Below the pieces are notes generated by a model, which saw only the letters and a program-made list of their open reading frames with translations, was not told where the DNA came from and ran no database searches. From contig JADHVS010000001.1 of assembly GCA_016783865.1 (NCBI GenBank), positions 13,509 to 77,508 of the forward strand: 64,000 nt of DNA. Reading direction: 5' to 3'. The position numbers and the translations under genes are program-made. Shown here in pieces: positions 2,302 through 64,000 of the stretch. Source of the DNA: Bacteroidales bacterium. Lineage in GTDB: Bacteria > Bacteroidota > Bacteroidia > Bacteroidales > SM23-62. The first letter of the stretch is position 1; every line of letters starts with the position of its first letter.

Positions 2302-2484
2302 AATAACCCATTTGATTTCAATTCATTAATTACCAAATCAATTTGATATTTCTTCAATATATTTCCAGGATGCGGTTTATGAAGTTTTATATTGTGCTTT
2401 AACTTCTCATTGAAAAATACAACTCGTGAACCTGATCCTTGTAATTCTTTATAATCAAAGCCACTCAATAACCTTTTTAATTGA
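2298..2484 (-). pseudogene. hicA: HicA toxin, 5'-truncated by repeat copy A
   Basis: Translation upstream of hicB gives LKRLLSGFDYKELQ, GSGSRVVFFNEKL, KHNIKLHKPHPGNILKKY and a C-terminal INELKSNGLL ending in TGA, which overlaps the hicB ATG. This is the C-terminal part of a HicA mRNA interferase with the catalytic His in the HKPHPG region. About 20 N-terminal residues expected for this HicA subtype are missing: at about 2481 the homology stops and structured repeat copy A begins. No ATG lies in the remaining frame; a TTG (RL-LSGF) is the only possible start. Probably non-functional, although the catalytic His remains. Confidence 0.85.
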
Positions 2485-2616
2485 CTCTCCTCGCAGCAAG
2501 CTGCGAGGAATCATCGATCCTTTATATAAATTTTTAATTGCGCTCGCTAACCCCGCAGCAAGCTACGGGGAAACGAGTTTCTGAGTTCGGCGAAGCCAAT
2601 GCGCTCGCAGGATTCA
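2481..2616 (+). repeat. Structured intergenic repeat, family 1, copy A (136 bp)
   Basis: Begins TTGACTCTCC and ends CGCTCGCAGGATTCA. It contains a perfect hairpin CCTCGCAGC-AA-GCTGCGAGG, an A/T-rich spacer (CTTTATATAAATTTTTAA), a second hairpin CCCCGCAGC-AA-GCTACGGGG with one mismatch, and two GCGCTCGC words. This long form includes an AAACGAGTTTCTGAGTTCGG block before the last GCGCTCGC. Other copies: 21270-21451, 25036-25144, 29862-29970, 63866-64000. It abuts the truncated hicA. Confidence 0.95.
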
Positions 2617-11340: not shown

Positions 11341-12501
11341 TTATCTCTCCATCTTGTACATCTCCGATCCTGCCAGCAGGAAACATCCCAGCCCATAATC
11401 TTCAAAATCAGGAACCCTTTTATATGTGACAGGCTGGCCCGTGGATGGCTCCTTGCCTGTTGACTGGACATATCCGAGAAAACCGTTGTCATGCACTGCT
11501 TTGGTGGCCATAGCATTCCAGGCTTTAATTACTGCTGGACGATATTTGTCGGCGGAGAGGAAATTATTGTTAATCCCCCAGGCTATTCCATAGACAAAAA
11601 GAGATGTCCCCGTGGTTTCCCTGCCTCCAAAGTTACCCGGATCATGCAAGCTGGCATTCCAGAATCCATCCTTTCTCTGTACTTTAAGAATGGCTTCACA
11701 CATTTCTTTATATGTACGCATATACTCTTCCCGGTATGGATGATCTTCCGGAAGGACATTCATTACACGAACCAGGGCAGCAAGCACCCAGCCGTTCCCC
11801 CTTGACCAGTAGCAATCTTCGCCGTTCGGTTCTGTGTATGGAGGATCATAATCGGCGTCCCTCCACCATAGGCCTTCCTCAAGATTGTACAACCCGTTCT
11901 CACCGTGGGATTCCTTAGTAAACAGGTACATTTCATGCATCCGGTCAATATAGGAGCTGTCTTCATAAATCATTCCCAGTCTGGCAAACACCGGCATGGC
12001 CATCTGCAGGGCATCGATCCAGTTCCAGTCATCTATCTTATCCGTTCTTAGCATGCTGTCGACCGATGCCTTGATGTATTCGATCCTTTCAGGTTGCGGA
12101 TCCAGTTGGTACAGATCAATATAGGTCTGCCCCGCACATTGGTTGTCGGCATTCCTTGTAAAAGTTTCTCCGTCCCGCAGGTTCCACCCGTGAAACTCAC
12201 CCCACCTGACAGCATAATCATAATATTCATGACGGGGATCCATCCTGTAGAGTTCCATAAGGCCTTCATAATAAACCGACCGGGTCCATATATTACTGGC
12301 CCTTTCCTTATTCGTTATAATAGTTTTACCCACATCCGGCCATTTCTCAATAAAATATGCGTTGCAGGTAGTCATGGTTTCAAGTATCTTTTCCCGGGAC
12401 ATGAGCTCCTGGCTCTTCGTAGAACATCCTGAAGTGAGGATGATCACTGAAAAAAATACAAGACTTACAGGCAGGATCTTTTTCTTTCTCATTGTTGACA
12501 T
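11341..12501 (-). CDS. GH105 unsaturated rhamnogalacturonyl hydrolase (YteR/RhiN-like) lipoprotein
   Basis: 386 residues with a lipoprotein signal (ILTSGC, Cys26). The (alpha/alpha)6-barrel signatures of GH105 are visible: NIWTRSVYYEGL, WNWIDALQMAMPVF with the likely catalytic Asp163, CYWSRGNGWVLAAL and ETTGTSLFVYGIAWGI. Known family members remove the unsaturated galacturonate left at the non-reducing end by lyases. It fits the adjacent PL22 gene, 24 bp upstream on the same strand, so the two are probably cotranscribed. Full length compared with the family. Confidence 0.9.
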   Translation of the reverse strand: MSTMRKKKILPVSLVFFSVIILTSGCSTKSQELMSREKILETMTTCNAYFIEKWPDVGKTIITNKERASNIWTRSVYYEGLMELYRMDPRHEYYDYAVRWGEFHGWNLRDGETFTRNADNQCAGQTYIDLYQLDPQPERIEYIKASVDSMLRTDKIDDWNWIDALQMAMPVFARLGMIYEDSSYIDRMHEMYLFTKESHGENGLYNLEEGLWWRDADYDPPYTEPNGEDCYWSRGNGWVLAALVRVMNVLPEDHPYREEYMRTYKEMCEAILKVQRKDGFWNASLHDPGNFGGRETTGTSLFVYGIAWGINNNFLSADKYRPAVIKAWNAMATKAVHDNGFLGYVQSTGKEPSTGQPVTYKRVPDFEDYGLGCFLLAGSEMYKMER

Positions 12502-12525
12502 GGTATTAATTTGTTAATTAGTTTC

Positions 12526-13788
12526 TTATTTAATCCCGGCAAATTCAACGGCATACACCTGGGTGCTCCCTTCAAAATTTGCCCTGAAAATAATCCATTT
12601 CCCATCGGGAGAGAAGTGTACATTGGGCTCAAGGCGATAGTCATGGTTTTTCATATTAACCAGCTTTTCTGACGACAGGCTATCGTTTTCCGGTCTGAAC
12701 AGGTAGAGCCACATCCCATCTTTTGCCAGTGCCACCTGGGAGGAATCCCCTCCGTCACCGGCAAACAGTTGCTGGTCAGGTGAAATATTAAAATGGATGG
12801 ACCATTCATCCCTTTTCATGCCATACCCGGTTTCCTTCCCTGTTGACAGGTCGAGCCCTGCCAGATAAAATGTCTCCCCTCTCGGGATCTGCAGGTCAAA
12901 CCAGATGGTTTCGCCATCCCTGCTGAAAAATTCATGTCCTGCGATCTCCCGGTGAACCGTTCTCTCATGCATCATCCTGGCCTGTGATGTTTGGATATTT
13001 ACGGTCCATATCCTGTCAAGGAGGTGCCACGGGCCCTCATGGCAGAACATCAGGAGTCCCGGATCTGTGGGGGAGAACTGGACGTGGTTCAGCCAGGCTG
13101 TATCACTGAAGACTTTCCGCAGTTTCCCGGTTTCAACCTCGATCGTAAAAAGGGAATGCGGAAGCCTTGCTTCGAAGATCTTATTAAAGAAGTCACCCTT
13201 ACGCGGAAACTGACGCAATAGTTCGGTTTTTTCCTTTCCGCTGGCCACTCCGCCAAGCAGGGTCTCATCCGCATTCAGGGTGGTAATGTTCCCCCTGATG
13301 CTGTCCGGAAATACATAGATCAAATTTGTCTCCAGGGATTCTACGTGTGTGGAAAAAACGCTGTCTCCACTCTGGTAGAAAACTTCTCTTCTGGTCTTTC
13401 CGGTTATCTCGCCTGATATCCTGGATGGATGATTGGTAATACGGATCTTTTCAAGTGTTTTCAGGTTCAGCGTATACAATTGCCTGTTCCCATACTCTGA
13501 ATATACCTGGTCGTTGGTATTCTCCGGATAATCCCCGTAAAAAACCATAAGGTCCCCTTCATCAGACAAAGCAGGAATGAACGGATTATTATGAAAGTAG
13601 AAACTTCTGTTGTTTCCATCCGGCCCGGTCAGGCGAACAACGCGGTGGTACGTATCCTGATCGATCCATTCATCGGGCATGGGAACGGTTCCTCCGGTTT
13701 CAAGAACAGGAACTGCAGGTTCATGGCAGGCTGCAAGAACAAAAACTGCACAAGCTGCAAAGATGCGAAGTTGATAGTTCATTTTCAT
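12526..13788 (-). CDS. PL22-type oligogalacturonate lyase-like lipoprotein
   Basis: Beta-propeller protein with PL22 signatures: YHRVVRLTG, FYFHNNPFIP, HVQFSPTDPGLLMFCHEG, DRIWTVN, REIAGHEF and HFSPDGKWIIFRAN. The last repeats resemble TolB. Known PL22 enzymes split short oligogalacturonides with Mn-dependent chemistry. I place the start at ATG 13788 (MKMNYQLRIF), which gives a lipoprotein signal ending VLAAC. The frame opens earlier at ATG 13827, but that adds 13 residues before the signal. It is the first gene of a likely PL22-GH105 minus-strand pair. Confidence 0.85.
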   Translation of the reverse strand: MKMNYQLRIFAACAVFVLAACHEPAVPVLETGGTVPMPDEWIDQDTYHRVVRLTGPDGNNRSFYFHNNPFIPALSDEGDLMVFYGDYPENTNDQVYSEYGNRQLYTLNLKTLEKIRITNHPSRISGEITGKTRREVFYQSGDSVFSTHVESLETNLIYVFPDSIRGNITTLNADETLLGGVASGKEKTELLRQFPRKGDFFNKIFEARLPHSLFTIEVETGKLRKVFSDTAWLNHVQFSPTDPGLLMFCHEGPWHLLDRIWTVNIQTSQARMMHERTVHREIAGHEFFSRDGETIWFDLQIPRGETFYLAGLDLSTGKETGYGMKRDEWSIHFNISPDQQLFAGDGGDSSQVALAKDGMWLYLFRPENDSLSSEKLVNMKNHDYRLEPNVHFSPDGKWIIFRANFEGSTQVYAVEFAGIK

Positions 13789-14008
13789 GGATGGTAATAT
13801 TGATATGCTAAAGTAAGGAATATACACTTTATATGAAGGTAGATTGCTGGAAAATCTGTATTCCTAAGGGTTTAGGATTTGTCATAAAGGAACCGATTTT
13901 ATAAATTTATTCACGGATTACATAAAGGACAGGATTGCTTTAATCCTTAGTAGAGATAATAGTCAATATTGTACCATTAACTAAATACTCCTGGAGAATA
14001 AATTAATT

Positions 14009-15730
14009 ATGAAATCAGATAAAACAATCTTTGTTGTAATGCTTCTTTTCATCCTGGTTCCCGGGCAGTCAAATATAACCCATTGCCAGTCATCCTTCCC
14101 AAACAAGGTTAATATTGACGTAAACCTCGACGCAAAAAAAGGTCCATTGAATCCGGTATGGGCATGGTTCGGGCATGATGAACCTAACTATACCTATATG
14201 AAAGACGGGAAAAAACTCCTGTCAGAAATCTCGGACGCTTTTCCTGTTCCTGCTTTTGTACGCACGCATAACCTGCTTAATACAGGAGATGGAACAGCTG
14301 CCCTGAAATGGGGTTCAACCAATGTCTATACAGAGGATGAAGACGGCAATCCGGTGTACGACTGGAGGGTGATCGACAGGATATTCGATACCTACATAGA
14401 AACAGGTATTAAACCACTTGTTGAGATCGGGTTTATGCCTGAAGCACTTTCGGCAAACCCGCAACCTTACAGGCATTCATGGGATCCCGGCGACCCCTAT
14501 GGTAACATTTATACCGGATGGGCCTATCCCCCGAAAGATTATGAGAAATGGGCGGAACTTGTGTACCGGTGGGTTTCTCATTCTGTCGAACGATATGGAG
14601 CCGGGGAAGTATCCACCTGGTACTGGGAGCTCTGGAATGAACCAAATATAGGTTACTGGCAGGGTACAACGGAAGAATACATCAAACTGTATGATTATAC
14701 AGCAGACGCAGTAAAAAGGGCATTACCGGAGGCTGTCTTTGGAGGCCCTCATGTCACGGGTCCAAGCTGGGAAGTATCTGAAACTTTCTTACGTGAATTT
14801 CTTGACCACTGCCTTACCGGGACAAATTATGTCACCGGCGAGCAGGGATCACCACTCGATTTCATTGCCTTCCATGCAAAGGGCTCACCGAAGATAGTCG
14901 AAGACCGGGTGCGTATGGACCTGGGCAGGCAATTACGTGATATTTCAGATGGTTTTGAAATCGTTGCTTCTTATCCTGCATTGAAGCATCTTCCCATTAT
15001 AATCGGTGAATCGGATCCGGAAGGATGTGCCGCCTGTCCAATGGAGCATTATCCCCACAATGCTTACCGGAACGGGACCATGTATTCGAGTTATACGGCA
15101 GCCGCTTTCGCCCGCAAACTGGACCTGGCGGAATATTATGGAGTGAATTTCCTTGGAGCAGTAACCTGGGCATTTGAATTCGAGGACCAGCCATGGTTTA
15201 ACGGATTTCGTGACCTGGCAACCAATGGCGTGGATAAACCTGTACTGAATGTATTCAGGATGTTCGGGATGATGCAGGGACAGAGGGTGGAAGTCAGCTG
15301 CAACAGGGCCTATGACCTATTTACAATCCGGGATTCAAGCGTAAGGGGAGACCAGCCTGATATTGGTGCACTGGCTGCAAAAGGGGAACATTCGGCTACA
15401 ATAATGGTATGGAATTACCATGATGATAATATTCTGCTACCTGAAACTCCTGTCACAATAGGCATCAGTGGCGTTCCTGAAGGAAGTGTCATGCTCAGGC
15501 ATTACCGGATCGACCAGGATCACAGCAATGCCTATGAACGATGGAAGAATATGGGATCCCCGCAGGATCCGACAAGCGAACAGTACCGGGAACTTGAGAA
15601 GGCCGGCCAACTGCAAATGATGGATTCCCCGCAGTGGCTGACAGTTAAGGATGGAATGCTTGGTATACACATGGACTTGCCCGGGCAGGGTGTTTCGTTA
15701 CTTGAATTCATCTGGCACACCGGGTATTAA
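14009..15730 (+). CDS. GH39-like glycoside hydrolase
   Basis: 573 residues with a signal peptide (hydrophobic core 7-18). TIM-barrel clan A residues are clear: general acid/base Glu211 in YWELWNEPNIGYW and nucleophile Glu334 in PIIIGESDPEG, with GFMPEALSA in between as in xylosidases of family 39. The C-terminal 150 residues form a beta-rich domain. Family members act on xylosides, iduronides or rhamnogalacturonan-linked sugars; the pectin context suggests a side-chain sugar. Its 3' end overlaps the convergent DUF4861 gene by 33 bp. Divergent from PL22. Confidence 0.85.
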   Translation: MKSDKTIFVVMLLFILVPGQSNITHCQSSFPNKVNIDVNLDAKKGPLNPVWAWFGHDEPNYTYMKDGKKLLSEISDAFPVPAFVRTHNLLNTGDGTAALKWGSTNVYTEDEDGNPVYDWRVIDRIFDTYIETGIKPLVEIGFMPEALSANPQPYRHSWDPGDPYGNIYTGWAYPPKDYEKWAELVYRWVSHSVERYGAGEVSTWYWELWNEPNIGYWQGTTEEYIKLYDYTADAVKRALPEAVFGGPHVTGPSWEVSETFLREFLDHCLTGTNYVTGEQGSPLDFIAFHAKGSPKIVEDRVRMDLGRQLRDISDGFEIVASYPALKHLPIIIGESDPEGCAACPMEHYPHNAYRNGTMYSSYTAAAFARKLDLAEYYGVNFLGAVTWAFEFEDQPWFNGFRDLATNGVDKPVLNVFRMFGMMQGQRVEVSCNRAYDLFTIRDSSVRGDQPDIGALAAKGEHSATIMVWNYHDDNILLPETPVTIGISGVPEGSVMLRHYRIDQDHSNAYERWKNMGSPQDPTSEQYRELEKAGQLQMMDSPQWLTVKDGMLGIHMDLPGQGVSLLEFIWHTGY

Positions 15731-16582
15731 AATTTCAGATACATGTGACAAGAAATCTTCCAGTGTGTTTATTTCCTTTCCCTTCCCGCATGCTGAAGTT
15801 ATCCATGTTTCAAGTGATTTGGCTGGCTTCGAAATAATCAGGTACTGGGTACTGTCATCCAGATTCCCCTCAAAGTCACCTGGGTCAAAGATTATGGCTG
15901 CACCCAGTTCAACACTTTCAACAGCGACATCCTCGGGGTGCAATCCCCAGGTAGCTATATAATTGTCCCCTTTTGAAACTTTCTGTCCATTGTGATAATT
16001 GATGCCAGTAACAAACTGTACCGGGTCACCGCCAGGCACCATTGCTTCCACTTTTGCTTCACGTTTGCCGGAATAAACCGTCACCCGAACAATTACATCA
16101 ACTATACCATCCTTGTAAGGAATCCCTTCTGAGCGCATCTCCATATAAGAGGATGAACCTTCTTTGCTCACCGCGGCATATCGATTTGTTACCGGGTCAA
16201 GTGGAACGACTTTTTCACCATCCCAGAGCCGCACACCTCCAAGTCCAACCGTGGTCCCTGCTTTGTAATAATCCGCTCCCCATCCATTTTGCTGTTGTTC
16301 AGGAGTGGGATACCAGCGTGCCTCCAATAGTTCCAGTCCCGGCCTGGACTTGGAATAAACATCAATAGCAGCTTTCTTATCAAAGTAGATGCGCAAGCTC
16401 ATCCACTCATTCTCGATGGCAGGTCCATGATGACCCAGCTCACTGAATAAATCTCCGGTTTCAGAAGAGATCTCTGTTAAGTAAGCAGAACTGTCGGCTC
16501 TCAGGAAAAGACTTACTTCTGTCTTGTTCCGGTTTACACAACTGCAGCAGACAATGCAAAAGATAATCAGATAATACTTCAT
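15698..16582 (-). CDS. DUF4861 lipoprotein
   Basis: 294 residues with a lipoprotein-type signal (IVCCSC, Cys15). The body carries DUF4861 patterns: GPAIENEWMSLRIYFDKKAA, WGADYYKAGTTVGLGGVRLW, VEAMVPGGDPVQFVTGINYH and NYIATWGLHPED. DUF4861 genes are known to cluster with rhamnogalacturonan and pectin enzymes, but their activity is not established. It lies 18 bp downstream of the GH28 gene on the same strand and is probably cotranscribed with it. Overlaps the GH39 3' end by 33 bp. Confidence 0.85.
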   Translation of the reverse strand: MKYYLIIFCIVCCSCVNRNKTEVSLFLRADSSAYLTEISSETGDLFSELGHHGPAIENEWMSLRIYFDKKAAIDVYSKSRPGLELLEARWYPTPEQQQNGWGADYYKAGTTVGLGGVRLWDGEKVVPLDPVTNRYAAVSKEGSSSYMEMRSEGIPYKDGIVDVIVRVTVYSGKREAKVEAMVPGGDPVQFVTGINYHNGQKVSKGDNYIATWGLHPEDVAVESVELGAAIIFDPGDFEGNLDDSTQYLIISKPAKSLETWITSACGKGKEINTLEDFLSHVSEILIPGVPDEFK

Positions 16583-16600
16583 AATTTAATGGTTTAGATA

Positions 16601-18562
16601 TTAATTTTGATTGTAGGATTGAAGAGAGACAGGTGACTGTTGAGCAATCAGCTTTTGTATCCGGATATTTAACTTTGATCCTGTTCCCCTGATCAGCAGC
16701 CAGTGGTTATCAGCGTCATATTGCCAGGTATCTGCACCGAAAACCGTTTCAGGCTTTCCCTCTGTTTTTATGTAAAAAATCCAGGTATGAGACCGCTCAC
16801 CCGAGACTGACAGCCGGCCCGTTTCCTGATCATACCGGATATCTACCTGGGAGATATAGAAACCATCGCCCAGGGGTTCGAAAAATGCAAACTCCTTTTC
16901 AATGCCAGGATGCACATACAAACGAATCGTATCTGAATACAACGTATCCCCGCTACTGAATTTTCTTACTTTACCGTTAACAACAGCAATACCTGCCGTT
17001 TGATCTCCAGACACTAGATTTTCCAGCAACGCCGGCAAATCCAATATTTGCTGGTCCTGCTCAGTATCAGGAGGGGAGGCAGGTATTATATCAGGAAGCC
17101 GGACATTAACACAATTAACCAGTTTAATGGTATCATCACCAGGGAGAGCAAGGCTGACATTTTCCATTGTCCAGTCCTTTGCATGGCTTATTGAACCCGG
17201 TTCATCCGCTTCTATACGGATATCTTTCCATTGGACGTTCCATATTGGCTTTTCGGGAAATGCATTTACGTAAAAAGCCTGCCTGGCTTTTTTTATGGTC
17301 ATATTGCTTAGCTTCAGGTTCCGGAATTCAGGTATCCCTCTTTCAGGGGGCAGCACAGGCTGAGCCATTATTTTCCAATGGTCAGGGATAGAGTCGGGCG
17401 GTATGGTCTCAGGAATTTCAGGATAGCTGTAAGCGGGGTACCAGTTCAACTCGAAATGAAAAGGAAAGTTTACCTCTTCCATCTCTATATCGTGGAACCA
17501 AATATTTTCGATAATACCACCTCTAACTTTGGCTGACTTGAACCGGATGCCCATATTGGTTCCAATAGCTTTCAGGCCGTATACCTCAATATTCCTCATG
17601 CCGCCTGATGTCTCGCTTCCCAGTGTAATAAGCCCGTGCCCTGAACGGGTGATGCAATTGCGATACACGATGTTTTCGGACGGCCTGTTCACACGGAGGC
17701 CATCGTAATCCCTGCCGGCCTTGATGCATAAATTATCATCGTTGCAATCGATATCACAGTTTTCCACCAGGATGTCACTCGAGGAATCGGTATTAATCCC
17801 GTCTGAACTGGGCCCGAAACCGCCGATATTATTCCGGATTACCACCCCGGTTACATGCACCCTGTTACAATAGGTCATTGAGATGGTCCAGAATCCTGAA
17901 CGTTCAACAGTAAAATCCTTCAGCGATATATCTTCTGATCCGAAAACAGCCAGCGCACGTACCCTCTTACAGTCATAATCCACAGCCCAGCGGAGCCCCC
18001 GGTCAATATAATCCTTGTACATCCCCCCGCTCCGGGGAGGGTCTCCCCAGAATTTATCCCACCAGTACTTTCCATTGCCGTCAATAATTCCTTTGCCACT
18101 GATGCGGACATTTTTCTGCTCATAGATATTGATCAGGGCAGCGGGCCAGTACATTTCAATTCCGGCAATCCTCGTCCAGATGTCAGGGTATTCCTTTTCG
18201 TCCTGGATGGCCCGGATCACTACTCCCTCATCAACCCGAAGATCCACATTTGATTTCAGGAATATGGCCCCGGAAAGATATACTCCTTCCGGAAATGTTA
18301 CCACCCCGCCACCTGCCTCTGCAGCTGCATCAATGGCTCCCTGGATAGCCCTCGTATCAAGCACTTCACCGTCACCGACGGCGCCAAAATCCACAACACT
18401 GAAAGTACGGTCCGGGATCCTGGCAAAGGAAGGATCATAAAAAATGGACTCAAGCCTTTTAACGAGGCCGCTCTTTCTTTCTGCTTCACATGCAGACAGG
18501 ATTAACAGGATCAAAATCCCTCTAAAAGTGCATAGAGCAATTCTAATAAAACGATTTTTCAT
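16601..18562 (-). CDS. GH28 polygalacturonase-family lipoprotein
   Basis: 653 residues, longer than a simple GH28 (about 400-450), because of a beta-rich C-terminal extension from about residue 470. Lipoprotein signal ILSAC (Cys25). Right-handed beta-helix with the classical GH28 set: NTD at 257-259, DD at 275-276, SGHG at 307-310 and RFK at 340-342. The VVDFGAVGDG motif at 57-66 is the usual start of the helix. It would hydrolyse galacturonan or rhamnogalacturonan in the envelope. First gene of the GH28-DUF4861 pair. Confidence 0.93.
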   Translation of the reverse strand: MKNRFIRIALCTFRGILILLILSACEAERKSGLVKRLESIFYDPSFARIPDRTFSVVDFGAVGDGEVLDTRAIQGAIDAAAEAGGGVVTFPEGVYLSGAIFLKSNVDLRVDEGVVIRAIQDEKEYPDIWTRIAGIEMYWPAALINIYEQKNVRISGKGIIDGNGKYWWDKFWGDPPRSGGMYKDYIDRGLRWAVDYDCKRVRALAVFGSEDISLKDFTVERSGFWTISMTYCNRVHVTGVVIRNNIGGFGPSSDGINTDSSSDILVENCDIDCNDDNLCIKAGRDYDGLRVNRPSENIVYRNCITRSGHGLITLGSETSGGMRNIEVYGLKAIGTNMGIRFKSAKVRGGIIENIWFHDIEMEEVNFPFHFELNWYPAYSYPEIPETIPPDSIPDHWKIMAQPVLPPERGIPEFRNLKLSNMTIKKARQAFYVNAFPEKPIWNVQWKDIRIEADEPGSISHAKDWTMENVSLALPGDDTIKLVNCVNVRLPDIIPASPPDTEQDQQILDLPALLENLVSGDQTAGIAVVNGKVRKFSSGDTLYSDTIRLYVHPGIEKEFAFFEPLGDGFYISQVDIRYDQETGRLSVSGERSHTWIFYIKTEGKPETVFGADTWQYDADNHWLLIRGTGSKLNIRIQKLIAQQSPVSLQSYNQN

Positions 18563-18689
18563 AATATATTACCGTTACTATATCTGGAGTGTTAGATTGT
18601 ACTACAAATTTCGTAATTTGTTAACAGTATTAATTCATAATTCCTATTAATTTTAAAAAAGCTTCATTTCAACCGAATAAAACCTGGTT

Positions 18690-19961
18690 ATGAAAAAAAT
18701 TATCATCCCGCTTGGACTATCACTCATGCTTTGTATGCTTGCAGGGTCCCGTTCAAAAAATCCGGATAAGGCCTCTCCCTGGCCTGAAATAACTAAAGAG
18801 ACCAAACCATGGACCCGATGGTGGTGGCTGGGATCTGCAGTTGACAAAGAAAATATCACCTCCCTGATGGAAGAATATGCTAAGGCAGGTTTCGGGGGTG
18901 TGGAAATTACCCTGATATACGGAGTAAAGGGGTGTGAAGACCAGTACCTTGAATTTCTGTCTCCGGCCTGGATGGATATGTTAAATACCTGCGTTTTGGA
19001 AGCAGAACACGTAGTAATGGGTGTTGATATGAACCTGGGGACGGGCTGGCCCATTGGCGGACCTCAAATAACACCGGAACACGCAGCAAGCAGACTGATC
19101 CTGCAGAAATATGAAATCTCCGGGAATGAATCCCTTGAAGCTAAAATAATACCTGAGGATCCCCGCCAGGTTGAACTTGGAGTAAACCTGGAAGCATTAA
19201 TGGCTTATTCGGAAGATGGGAAGAGCCTTGATCTTACCGGTCGTGTCGGAGAAGACGGTACACTGGACTGGATACCTGAAAAAGGGATGTGGAATCTTTA
19301 CGCAGCATTCTGCGGTAAAACACGGCAGAGGGTGAAAAGGGCTGCACCGGGTGGTGAAGGATATACGATGGATCATTTGTCTGAAACCGCCCTGGGAACT
19401 TACCTGGAGAGGTTTGATCAGGCATTTACTACACCCACAGGTGTACGGTCATTTTTTAACGATAGTTATGAAGTGTACAATGCGAGCTGGTCACCTGGTT
19501 TTCTTGAGGAATTTTCTGAAAGAAGGGGTTATGACCTGAGTAAGTACCTGAAGCATCTTGCCGGTGAAGGTGATACCAACGAAATTGCCCGTGTGAAATC
19601 CGACTACAGGCAGACCATGTCGGAAATGCTGCTTGAACACTTTACTGTTCCCTGGACTGAATGGTCTCACAAACACCAGAGCCTTACGCGTAACCAGGCA
19701 CACGGATCCCCCGGGAACCTGATCGACCTCTATGCTGCAGTGGATATACCCGAATGCGAAATATTCGGCCACAGAACCTTTGATATCCCCGGCCTTCCGG
19801 TTAATGATGATGATTCCCGCAACGTAGAACCGAATCCGATGATGCTTAAACTGGCTACATCGGCGGCTCATATTATGAATAAACCACTCATTTCGAATGA
19901 AACATTTACCTGGCTGGCGGAACAAATGAATAATGGTTGGCCAGGAGCCCTCCCGGATTAG
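18690..19961 (+). pseudogene. GH106 alpha-L-rhamnosidase-like, 3' truncated
   Basis: 423 residues with signal peptide. GH106-type N-terminal signatures: PWTRWWWLGSAVDKENI, GFGGVEITLIYGV, GVDMNLGTGWPIGGP, FFNDSYEVYNASWSPGFLEE and LISNETFTWLAE. Family members run to about 900-1100 residues. Homology stops at about 19925 just after ETFTWLAE and the frame closes 12 codons later, directly before the convergent enolase-superfamily gene. More than half of the catalytic and all accessory domains are missing, so it is probably inactive. Confidence 0.8.
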
Positions 19962-21269: not shown

Positions 21270-21451
21270 ATTGAAACTCCTCGCCCCGGTTATCGGGGAG
21301 AAACGAGTTTCTGAGTTCGGCGAATTGACTCTCCTCGCAGCAAGCTGCGAGGAATCATCGATCCTTTATATAAATTTTTAATTGCGCTCGCTAACCCCGC
21401 AGCAAGCTACGGCCAATGCGCTCGCAGGATTCAATGCGCTCGCAGGATTCA
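21270..21451 (+). repeat. Structured intergenic repeat, family 1, copy B with nested partial copy
   Basis: A partial unit (TTGAAACTCCTCGCCCCGG with hairpin CCCCGGTTATCGGGG and the AAACGAGTTTCTGAGTTCGG block) runs directly into a full unit starting TTGACTCTCC at 21325. In the full unit, CTACGG is joined directly to CCAATGCGCTCG. The tail word AATGCGCTCGCAGGATTC occurs twice. It occupies much of the 21256-21604 gap; the rest holds only the promoter of the next gene. Confidence 0.9.
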
Positions 21452-25035: not shown

Positions 25036-25144
25036 TTGACTCTCCTTGCAGCAAGCTGCGAGGAATCATCGATCCTTTATATAAATTTTTAATTGCGCTC
25101 GCTAACCCCGCAGCAAGCTACGGGGAATGCGCTCGCAGGATTCA
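25036..25144 (+). repeat. Structured intergenic repeat, family 1, copy C (short form, 109 bp)
   Basis: Short form lacking the AAACGAGTTTCTGAGTTCGG block: after GCTACGGGG it goes directly to AATGCGCTCGCAGGATTCA. One change (CTCCTTGCAGC) weakens the first hairpin. It lies between the divergent DUF3137 and M23 genes. Confidence 0.95.
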
Positions 25145-28996: not shown

Positions 28997-29813
28997 ATGC
29001 AATCCTTCTCCTCACTCGTTCAAATCCGAAAACTGTTATCTGACCAACAGGTAACGCTTCCTTCTGTTGTTGAACACTATCTTGGTAACATCGATAAGAA
29101 CCAGGACCTCAATGCCATTATTGAGGTTTTCAGGGAAGAAGCCCTGGATAGCAGCAAACAGATCCAGAAAAAAATTGGTCAGGGGAAAGCAGGCAAACTG
29201 GCCGGACCAATTGTGATGAATTTGCCATGGGTGGAACCAATGAGACCTCCGTGCATGGCCCGGTATTGAATCCTGTTAACCGTACCAAAGTAGCGGGGGG
29301 TTCTGCGGGGTAACCGGCATTAAACCTACCTATGGAAGGGTATCCCGTTATGGCGGCATCCATTATGGCTACAGGAACAGGGAGTCAAAGGACATCAAAT
29401 CGACCTATACCCTTTCGCGCAGTGAAAGTTTCGGACTGGAAGTTAAAAGAAGGATCATGACCGGCACATTCGTCCTGAGCGCAGGATATTATGATGCCTT
29501 CTATGCCAAGGCCCAGAAAGTGAGGAGACTGATCTCTGAAAAGACACAGGAAATTTTTAACCGGTATGACCTTATCCTGCTGCCCACAACACCCCGGACT
29601 GCTTTTGACCTGGGAAGCATGGGCGATGATCCCGTAGCGCTTTACCTCGAAGACATCTTCACCACTCATGCTAACCTGACCGGTATTCCGGCCATGTCAT
29701 TACCCCTGGGCCGGCACACAAATGGTCTGCCTTTTGGGGTCCAGGTTATGGCCAATCGGTTTGAAGAAAGCAAGATATTGGCTTTTGGCCAATATCTCGT
29801 GAATCGAGGGTGA
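28997..29813 (+). pseudogene. gatA: gatA-type amidase with several internal deletions
   Basis: Segments in order: N-terminal helix region up to [31 protein letters not shown] with [55 protein letters not shown]; and the C-terminus LILLPTTPRTAFDLGSMGDD to ILAFGQYLVNRG. These are pieces of the glutamyl/aspartyl-tRNA amidotransferase A subunit in the right order. Missing are the catalytic Lys region after KLAG, the GSSGGSA to PAAFC block with both catalytic Ser, and most of the middle. About 817 bp remain of about 1430. Frame changes at the junctions confirm inactivity. Confidence 0.88.
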
Positions 29814-29861: not shown

Positions 29862-29970
29862 TTGATTCTCCTCGCAGCAAGCTGCGAGGAATCATCGATC
29901 CTTAATATAAATTTTAAATTGCGCTCGCTAACCCCGCAGCAAGCTACGGGGAATGCGCTCGCAGGATTCA
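29862..29970 (+). repeat. Structured intergenic repeat, family 1, copy D (short form, 109 bp)
   Basis: Same architecture as copy C with a few base changes (TTGATTCTCC, CTTAATATAAATTTTAAA). It begins soon after a possible promoter (TATAAT at 29844) and ends 19 bp before the DUF4837 start codon. If that promoter is used, the repeat is the 5' untranslated region of that gene. Confidence 0.95.
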
Positions 29971-63865: not shown

Positions 63866-64000
63866 TTGACTCTCCTCGCAGCAAGCTGCGAGGAATCATC
63901 GATCCTTTATATAAATTTTTAATTGCGCTCGCTAACCCCGCAGCAAGCTACGGGGAAACGAGTTTCTGAGTTCGGCGAAGCCAATGCGCTCGCAGGATTC
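63866..64000 (+). repeat. Structured intergenic repeat, family 1, copy E (long form, reaches window end)
   Basis: Identical in plan to copy A, including the AAACGAGTTTCTGAGTTCGG block, and runs to the last base of the window (CGCTCGCAGGATTC). It lies 5' of the DUF1080 gene. Confidence 0.95.

Follow-up and report, generated by a model that had tools for sequence, protein, structure and literature searches.

Two-hairpin repeats of a Bacteroidales contig as probable non-autonomous transposable elements with IS200/IS605-like ends

The stretch of Bacteroidales DNA analysed here (64,000 nucleotides; the window) carries a two-hairpin repeat in five copies, all on the + strand, which raises the question of what kind of element this is and by what means it was dispersed. 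A sequence-only reading had placed the five same-orientation copies correctly and proposed a mobile or selected non-coding element of REP or MITE type; its mobile, non-coding character is borne out, since empty sites exist, the ends are sharp and unrelated loci carry almost identical copies. We consider it likely that the repeats are palindrome-associated transposable elements (PATEs), non-autonomous, of single-strand type and with ends like those of IS200/IS605, which consist of little beyond a left and a right end.

Layout of the window copies

On the + strand, the element reads TTGA, hairpin 1, AATC, spacer, hairpin 2, AATG and tip, followed by TTCA, with both hairpins in one orientation. 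On the - strand, the left end comprises the target TGAA, the tip, the putative guide CATT and a hairpin, while the right end comprises the putative guide GATT, a hairpin and TCAA. The likeness of the window copies exceeds chance: they are 75-100% identical over 136 bp and score 84-112 bits against a covariance model that has two of the five copies among its training set.

2481..2612, + strand: copy A, long form, 132 bp, followed by target TTCA (2613-2616)
2488-2509, + strand: hairpin 1 of copy A
2551-2570, + strand: hairpin 2 of copy A
2571-2597, + strand: extra block of copy A
2598-2601, + strand: putative left-guide word AATG of copy A
21270..21324, + strand: foreign hairpin fragment abutting copy B upstream, starting with ATTGAA and including the AAACGAGTTTCTGAGTTCGG block
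21325..21429, + strand: copy B, short form, 105 bp, followed by target TTCA (21430-21433)
21332-21353, + strand: hairpin 1 of copy B
21395-21414, + strand: hairpin 2 of copy B, 3' arm altered to GGCC
21434..21451, + strand: 18-bp duplicate of the right end of copy B (ATGCGCTCGCAGGATTCA)
25036..25140, + strand: copy C, short form, 105 bp (first noted at 25036-25144), followed by target TTCA (25141-25144)
25043..25064, + strand: hairpin 1 of copy C, the right-end hairpin on the - strand
25064..25067, - strand: putative right guide GATT of copy C, at the foot of hairpin 1
25036-25039, - strand: putative right cleavage site TCAA of copy C
25106..25125, + strand: hairpin 2 of copy C, the left-end hairpin on the - strand
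25126..25129, - strand: putative left guide CATT of copy C, at the foot of hairpin 2
25141-25144, - strand: TGAA, predicted target of the left guide of copy C
25073..25075, + strand: TCC 3' of hairpin 1 of copy C, complementary to the right tip GGA (25138-25140)
29862..29966, + strand: copy D, short form, 105 bp, followed by target TTCA (29967-29970)
63866..63997, + strand: copy E, long form, followed by TTC of the target and then the window end

The limits first assigned to the copies are too wide at one end: the element proper starts with TTGA and stops short of the closing TTCA, which belongs to the target, as comparisons of filled and empty sites demonstrate. Within 21270-21451, formerly taken as a single copy, only 21325-21429 is element, the remainder being the foreign fragment and the right-end duplicate. 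The core CGCAGCAAGCTACG is shared by all five copies as claimed, whereas the exact core CGCAGCAAGCTGCG is present in four, the copy at 25036 having TGCAGC. The division into two size classes stands for the copies at 2481 and 63866, which contain the AAACGAGTTTCTGAGTTCGG block, but not for copy B, where the block lies in the preceding foreign fragment. This block has positional counterparts outside the window in G133 (L072, L073) and G016 (L052), and in all three genomes it is situated between hairpin 2 and the left-guide word (window 2571-2597 and 63956-63982; L052, L072, L073); it may itself form small hairpins. As to a location near the 5' end of a gene, the distance from the originally given end to the next + strand ORF is 446, 114, 87 and 19 bp for the first four copies, copy E ending with the window.

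The ORF just before copy D (29457-29813) has an amidase match confined to its C-terminal part (profile positions 334-445 of 445) and is possibly a broken or frameshifted gene. The window also encodes a pectin/rhamnogalacturonan degradation cluster (11341-19961; GH88, oligogalacturonate lyase, GH39, DUF4861, GH28 and GH106) and proteins of Bacteroidota-like look (SprA, Por secretion tail and DUF4837).

Insertion sites and distribution

Insertion occurs at A^TTCA on the + strand, equivalent to 3' of TGAA on the - strand, and is precise, with neither duplication nor deletion of the target. The joined flanks of 14 insertions were searched against six genomes, and 13 spanning matches, representing 10 insertions, were aligned. 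Nine of these 13 alignments leave exactly four bases at the TTCA position: three have TTCA itself, five differ from it by one base and one by two. Two more show no difference in length but mismatch at the final flank base; a T run makes another ambiguous, and one is not clean. Filled and empty sites are thus of equal length in 11 of the 13, and the target-site duplication that had been sought, and that a MITE with terminal inverted repeats would carry, is absent from the alignments; the element also has no terminal inverted repeats, the right-hand TTCA being target, and is no MITE in that sense. A dispersed repeat within one genome is likewise filled at two loci (L127, L145) and empty at two others (L137, L144), the difference being the element at A^TTCA.

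An A precedes TTGA in 68 of 77 elements, giving TGAA^T, and among 27 distinct flanks in G209, taken from copies chosen by their TTGA...TTCA ends, A stands before in 26 and after in 27. Such a base preference beside the cut recalls TTAC^C of IS608 and TTGAT^G of ISDra2 (PMC5934647). One copy in G133 (L049, 1501-1607) interrupts a reading frame whose peptide, by eye, looks like a prolyl oligopeptidase, and this frame closes again, by eye, with everything up to TTCA removed. The worry that the copies might be assembly duplications could be dismissed because their flanks differ.

The repeat also occurs outside the window. A gapped pattern run against genome contigs led to three places, in Bacteroides sp. 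SM23_62, Ca. Manganitrophus GAC4 and a Ca. Desulfaltia MAG, while a covariance model built from 18 elements had matches in 9 of 198 relatives of Bacteroides sp. SM23_62, 50 of 245 Nitrospirota genomes (the phylum of Ca. Manganitrophus), 31 of 247 Desulfobacterota genomes (the phylum of Ca. Desulfaltia) and 39 of 345 genomes from the phylum of G133, the centre genome being counted in each set. Relatives of the element are thus present in three phyla, Bacteroidota, Nitrospirota and Desulfobacterota. Among the matches listed outside G133 in its phylum, all score 43.1 bits or less, and most of the low scorers read belong to a cousin family of 91-97 nt. Copy numbers per genome are lower bounds, as 10-18 candidates were scored in each; G209, for which 40 of 85 candidates were scored, has at least 41 matches, 29 of them at 98-100% identity. 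The copies read are about 80-180 bp long, too short for a transposase gene.

BLAST against plasmids and phages with the window copy as query gave no match. A Desulfaltia copy matched three Ca. Manganitrophus plasmids and no phage, and four patterns had no match among viral contigs. The plasmid-borne copies are located on CP114557.1 (L212), CP114554.1 and CP114562.1, and these plasmids are a possible route of spread between replicons.

Hairpins, putative guides and joined ends

Folded as single-stranded DNA, the window copy is slightly better than its shuffles (z -1.7 and -1.5) and the other copies reach z -3.3 to -4.4. In the best predicted RNA fold of the L015 copy, the two hairpins pair with each other. 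Over 18 sequences, 86.5% of the stem cells pair, whereas slid alignments reach 44.0% at most. For hairpin 2, the outer stem (GCGCTCGC) was set aside, as only 64.8% of its cells pair. As to compensatory stem changes, the covariation score is matched by 1 of 500 shuffles; two of the five measures do not exceed the shuffles, the count of pairs with changes on both sides being reached by 157 of 500 and that of further pair types by all 500 (18 sequences).

One variant is common to both hairpins in some G003 copies (L007, L017, L031), and the two hairpins differ in G217-type copies, among others. In solo forms (L016, L018 and G255 C2:120568-120618), the first half of one end is fused to the second half of the opposite end, and small foreign GC-rich hairpins are found inside the element hairpins at L155-L158 and L162-L170 (G209, G335, G233, G431, G410 and G348), as if the hairpins attracted further small elements. 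L092 (G210) is a tandem pair of single-hairpin units of the form ATGAATAACCC-hairpin-TATC; its left end and the foot of its hairpin agree with the TCAT/GATA set given below.

The landing site appears to be chosen by pairing of a four-letter DNA guide, much as in IS608, for which target choice by a DNA guide has been shown and re-set in the laboratory (PMC5934647). In IS608, the left cleavage site (CL) is TTAC, the left guide (GL) AAAG, the right cleavage site (CR) TCAA and the right guide (GR) GAAT, with A+16 and A+17 of the left guide pairing with T-3 and T-4, respectively (PMC5934647). On our own reading, its two guide sets suggest that guide base 4 may also pair with cleavage base 4. In the present element, CATT would match the target TGAA and GATT the end TCAA. 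Guides were parsed in 83 of 94 distinct elements, where CL is TGAA in 73, GL is CATT in 70, CR is TCAA in 78 and GR is GATT in 69. GL starts at +16 in 55 of the 83, at +12 in eight (the window and four relatives of G001), at +13 in five (G080, G226), at +17 in four (G335), and at +15 and +8 in one each.

The idea of covariation between guide and site was drawn from seven loci, to which 40 further loci were then added. The test covered 142 rows (99 distinct per genome) and 5000 permutations, some ends being adjusted by rule before counting and kinship among rows not being corrected for. Three of the six predicted base pairs lie above all permutations, namely guide 1-cleavage 2 of the left end (81 of 99 paired; permuted mean 65.1, maximum 77), guide 1-cleavage 2 of the right end (71 of 99; mean 61.2, maximum 68) and guide 4-cleavage 4 of the right end (83 of 99; mean 57.3, maximum 72), whereas guide 2-cleavage 1 at both ends and guide 4-cleavage 4 of the left end hardly vary and are not significant. 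Among four control pairings per end, guide 4-cleavage 2 of the right end gave p 0.021 (pooled 0.0064) and the others were not significant. The frequent right-end sets (cleavage/guide) are TCAA/GATT (46), TCAT/GATA (9), TTAT/AATA (8) and TCAA/GAAT (2), the last being the IS608 set; those of the left end are TGAA/CATT (35), TAAA/TATT (11), TGAA/TATT (7, with a G-T pair), TTAA/AATT (5) and TGAA/CAAT (3). These sets leave out 34 of the 99 rows at the right end and 38 of the 99 at the left end; parsing failures and rule-breakers are among them, and all were kept in the counts. On this statistical basis, the predicted guide and cleavage site change together across families.

The last 3-5 bases before TTCA complement bases 3' of hairpin 1, so that the joined ends could make one long hairpin; the pairs are GGA/TCC for the window copies and CGG/CCG, CCTG/CAGG, CATT/AATG and CGGAA/TTCCG elsewhere. 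Among the 78 of 95 rows that start with TTGA and end with TTCA (26 distinct types), the joined-end score is 3.15 versus 1.97 (sd 0.21) and is reached in none of 20000 permutations; for Nitrospirota genomes not used before, it is 2.44 versus 1.62 (p 0.0043, 16 types). The complementarity is absent from the Bacteroidota cousin family (0.22 versus 0.36, p 0.96, 9 types). We know of no such end-to-end complementary stem in IS200/IS605 elements.

If the repeats are PATE-like and, as is probable, moved in trans, a Y1-type (HUH) transposase would excise the - strand as a circle, joining TCAA to the left tip, and the circle would be re-inserted at a TGAA picked via pairing with the left guide. Complementarity over the joined ends may prolong the right hairpin in the circle and help to hold or mark the junction.

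Known systems and competing explanations

The PATEs are Haloquadratum walsbyi elements whose movement has been reported though the IS200-type transposases are mostly broken (PMC3119063). In common with the element, they are too short for a transposase, have no terminal inverted repeats and no target duplication, carry near-terminal palindromes alike at both ends, give rise to terminal-only forms via deletion between the palindromes and contain inserted small elements (PMC3119063). The present element differs from the PATEs, as described there, in being bacterial and spread over three phyla, in its joined-end complementarity and in the covariation of its putative guides. IS608 shares with it insertion 3' of a tetranucleotide without duplication, hairpins close to both ends with a guide 5' of either one, GL at +16 and CR TCAA, and its GR GAAT also occurs in one element family (PMC5934647); the element, unlike IS608 as described there, is about 90-180 bp long, has no tnpA or tnpB and has other left guides and targets. 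Like IS200/IS605 transposons in general, it inserts 3' of a short fixed target that is not duplicated and has predicted hairpin-foot guides pairing with CL and CR, but it encodes no TnpA (Y1).

The PATE reading fits save for one point, namely that no IS605-type parent with matching ends was found, whether at 40 of 57 PF01797 loci or at three TnpB loci. PF01797 (Y1_Tnp) was searched in 3, 12 and 6 genomes, and nine of 13 carrier genomes have such proteins. G002, G133, G335 and G080 have element copies and no credible PF01797 gene, the ORFs listed for weak matches in G133 and G335 resembling ordinary proteins by eye. TnpB gave three matches in 13 genomes, with the family hairpin words absent from their loci. 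No transposase family was found among thirty window proteins, and no autonomous parent or mobiliser at the half elements L074 and L076 or in 799,629 bases of G255. The recurrent neighbour clusters examined after all-against-all BLASTP were mainly frames over the element itself. Orientation relative to GC skew agrees with IS200 logic for 15 of 23 copies in G002 (one-sided sign test about 0.1), a lagging-strand trend which is not significant and which is absent from the local skew of G209. Against the reading also stand the rows outside the frequent cleavage/guide sets, the control pairing that reached significance, the weak single-stranded DNA fold of the window copy, the L015 fold and the lack of joined-end complementarity in the cousin family. 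A wider reading, which we regard as speculative and rather doubtful, is that of a cross-phylum superfamily of gene-less DNA-guided transposons, the site being re-programmed by guide mutation (TTCA, TTTA, TTAA), the circle secured by the end-to-end stem and the enzyme lying outside PF01797.

Under the REP type first suggested, a domesticated TnpA-REP protein (RAYT) would move or process hairpins resembling REPs. REPs are likewise dispersed hairpins thought to be moved in trans by a Y1 enzyme (PMC6006769, PMC3733652), many of the PF01797 proteins of the carriers are of about 320-370 aa, and one related hairpin lies some 60 nt downstream of a broken PF01797 gene (L037). This explanation is nevertheless unlikely, as four carriers have no PF01797 gene, the hairpins by eye have no GTAG/CGTC foot, and none of the 40 PF01797 loci inspected for hairpins (of 57 matches; nine read more closely) is bordered by an element pair, three of them (L103, L113, L121) having hairpins of another kind that are GTAG-tagged in two or more. 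Moreover, precise insertions with two defined ends and a defined four-base target are unlike single REPs as described there.

Equally improbable is an integron-like process, in which a tyrosine recombinase would act on the folded single strand of the joined ends and recombine N^TT with chromosomal A^TTCA. It would account for the cut before TT in element and target alike and for the long hairpin foldable from the joined ends, which may resemble attC, but it leaves unexplained the target C versus the element G and the covariation of hairpin foot and cut site, and the copies are dispersed and form no cassette arrays. Still less probable is an IS110- or IS607-type recombinase joining a 2-base TT core of circle and target, with a bridge-RNA-like piece in the IS110 version; TT is present at both ends and in the target, and an internal stretch complements the joined ends, yet 4-nt hairpin-foot guides with IS608-like spacing are, to our knowledge, foreign to both systems. 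A conserved RNA element or terminator under selection, suggested by stable RNA folds (z -2.9 to -4.7 in four copies) and by four window copies preceding genes, can practically be dismissed given the orthologous empty sites, the near-identical copies at unrelated loci, the insertions within reading frames and the lack of any Rfam match above gathering score in the window.

As far as literature searches go, three features of these probable PATE-like elements are new: their spread over three phyla, guides rewritten in nature and the stem formed across the joined ends. A sharp question is which enzyme moves them where genomes show no Y1 transposase. The dispersed hairpins of a widespread class, itself not found described in the literature searches, now have an explanation. 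Nature seems to have rewritten the IS608-like guide code more than once in these very small elements, several times over, and the natural guide/target pairs form a ready test series.
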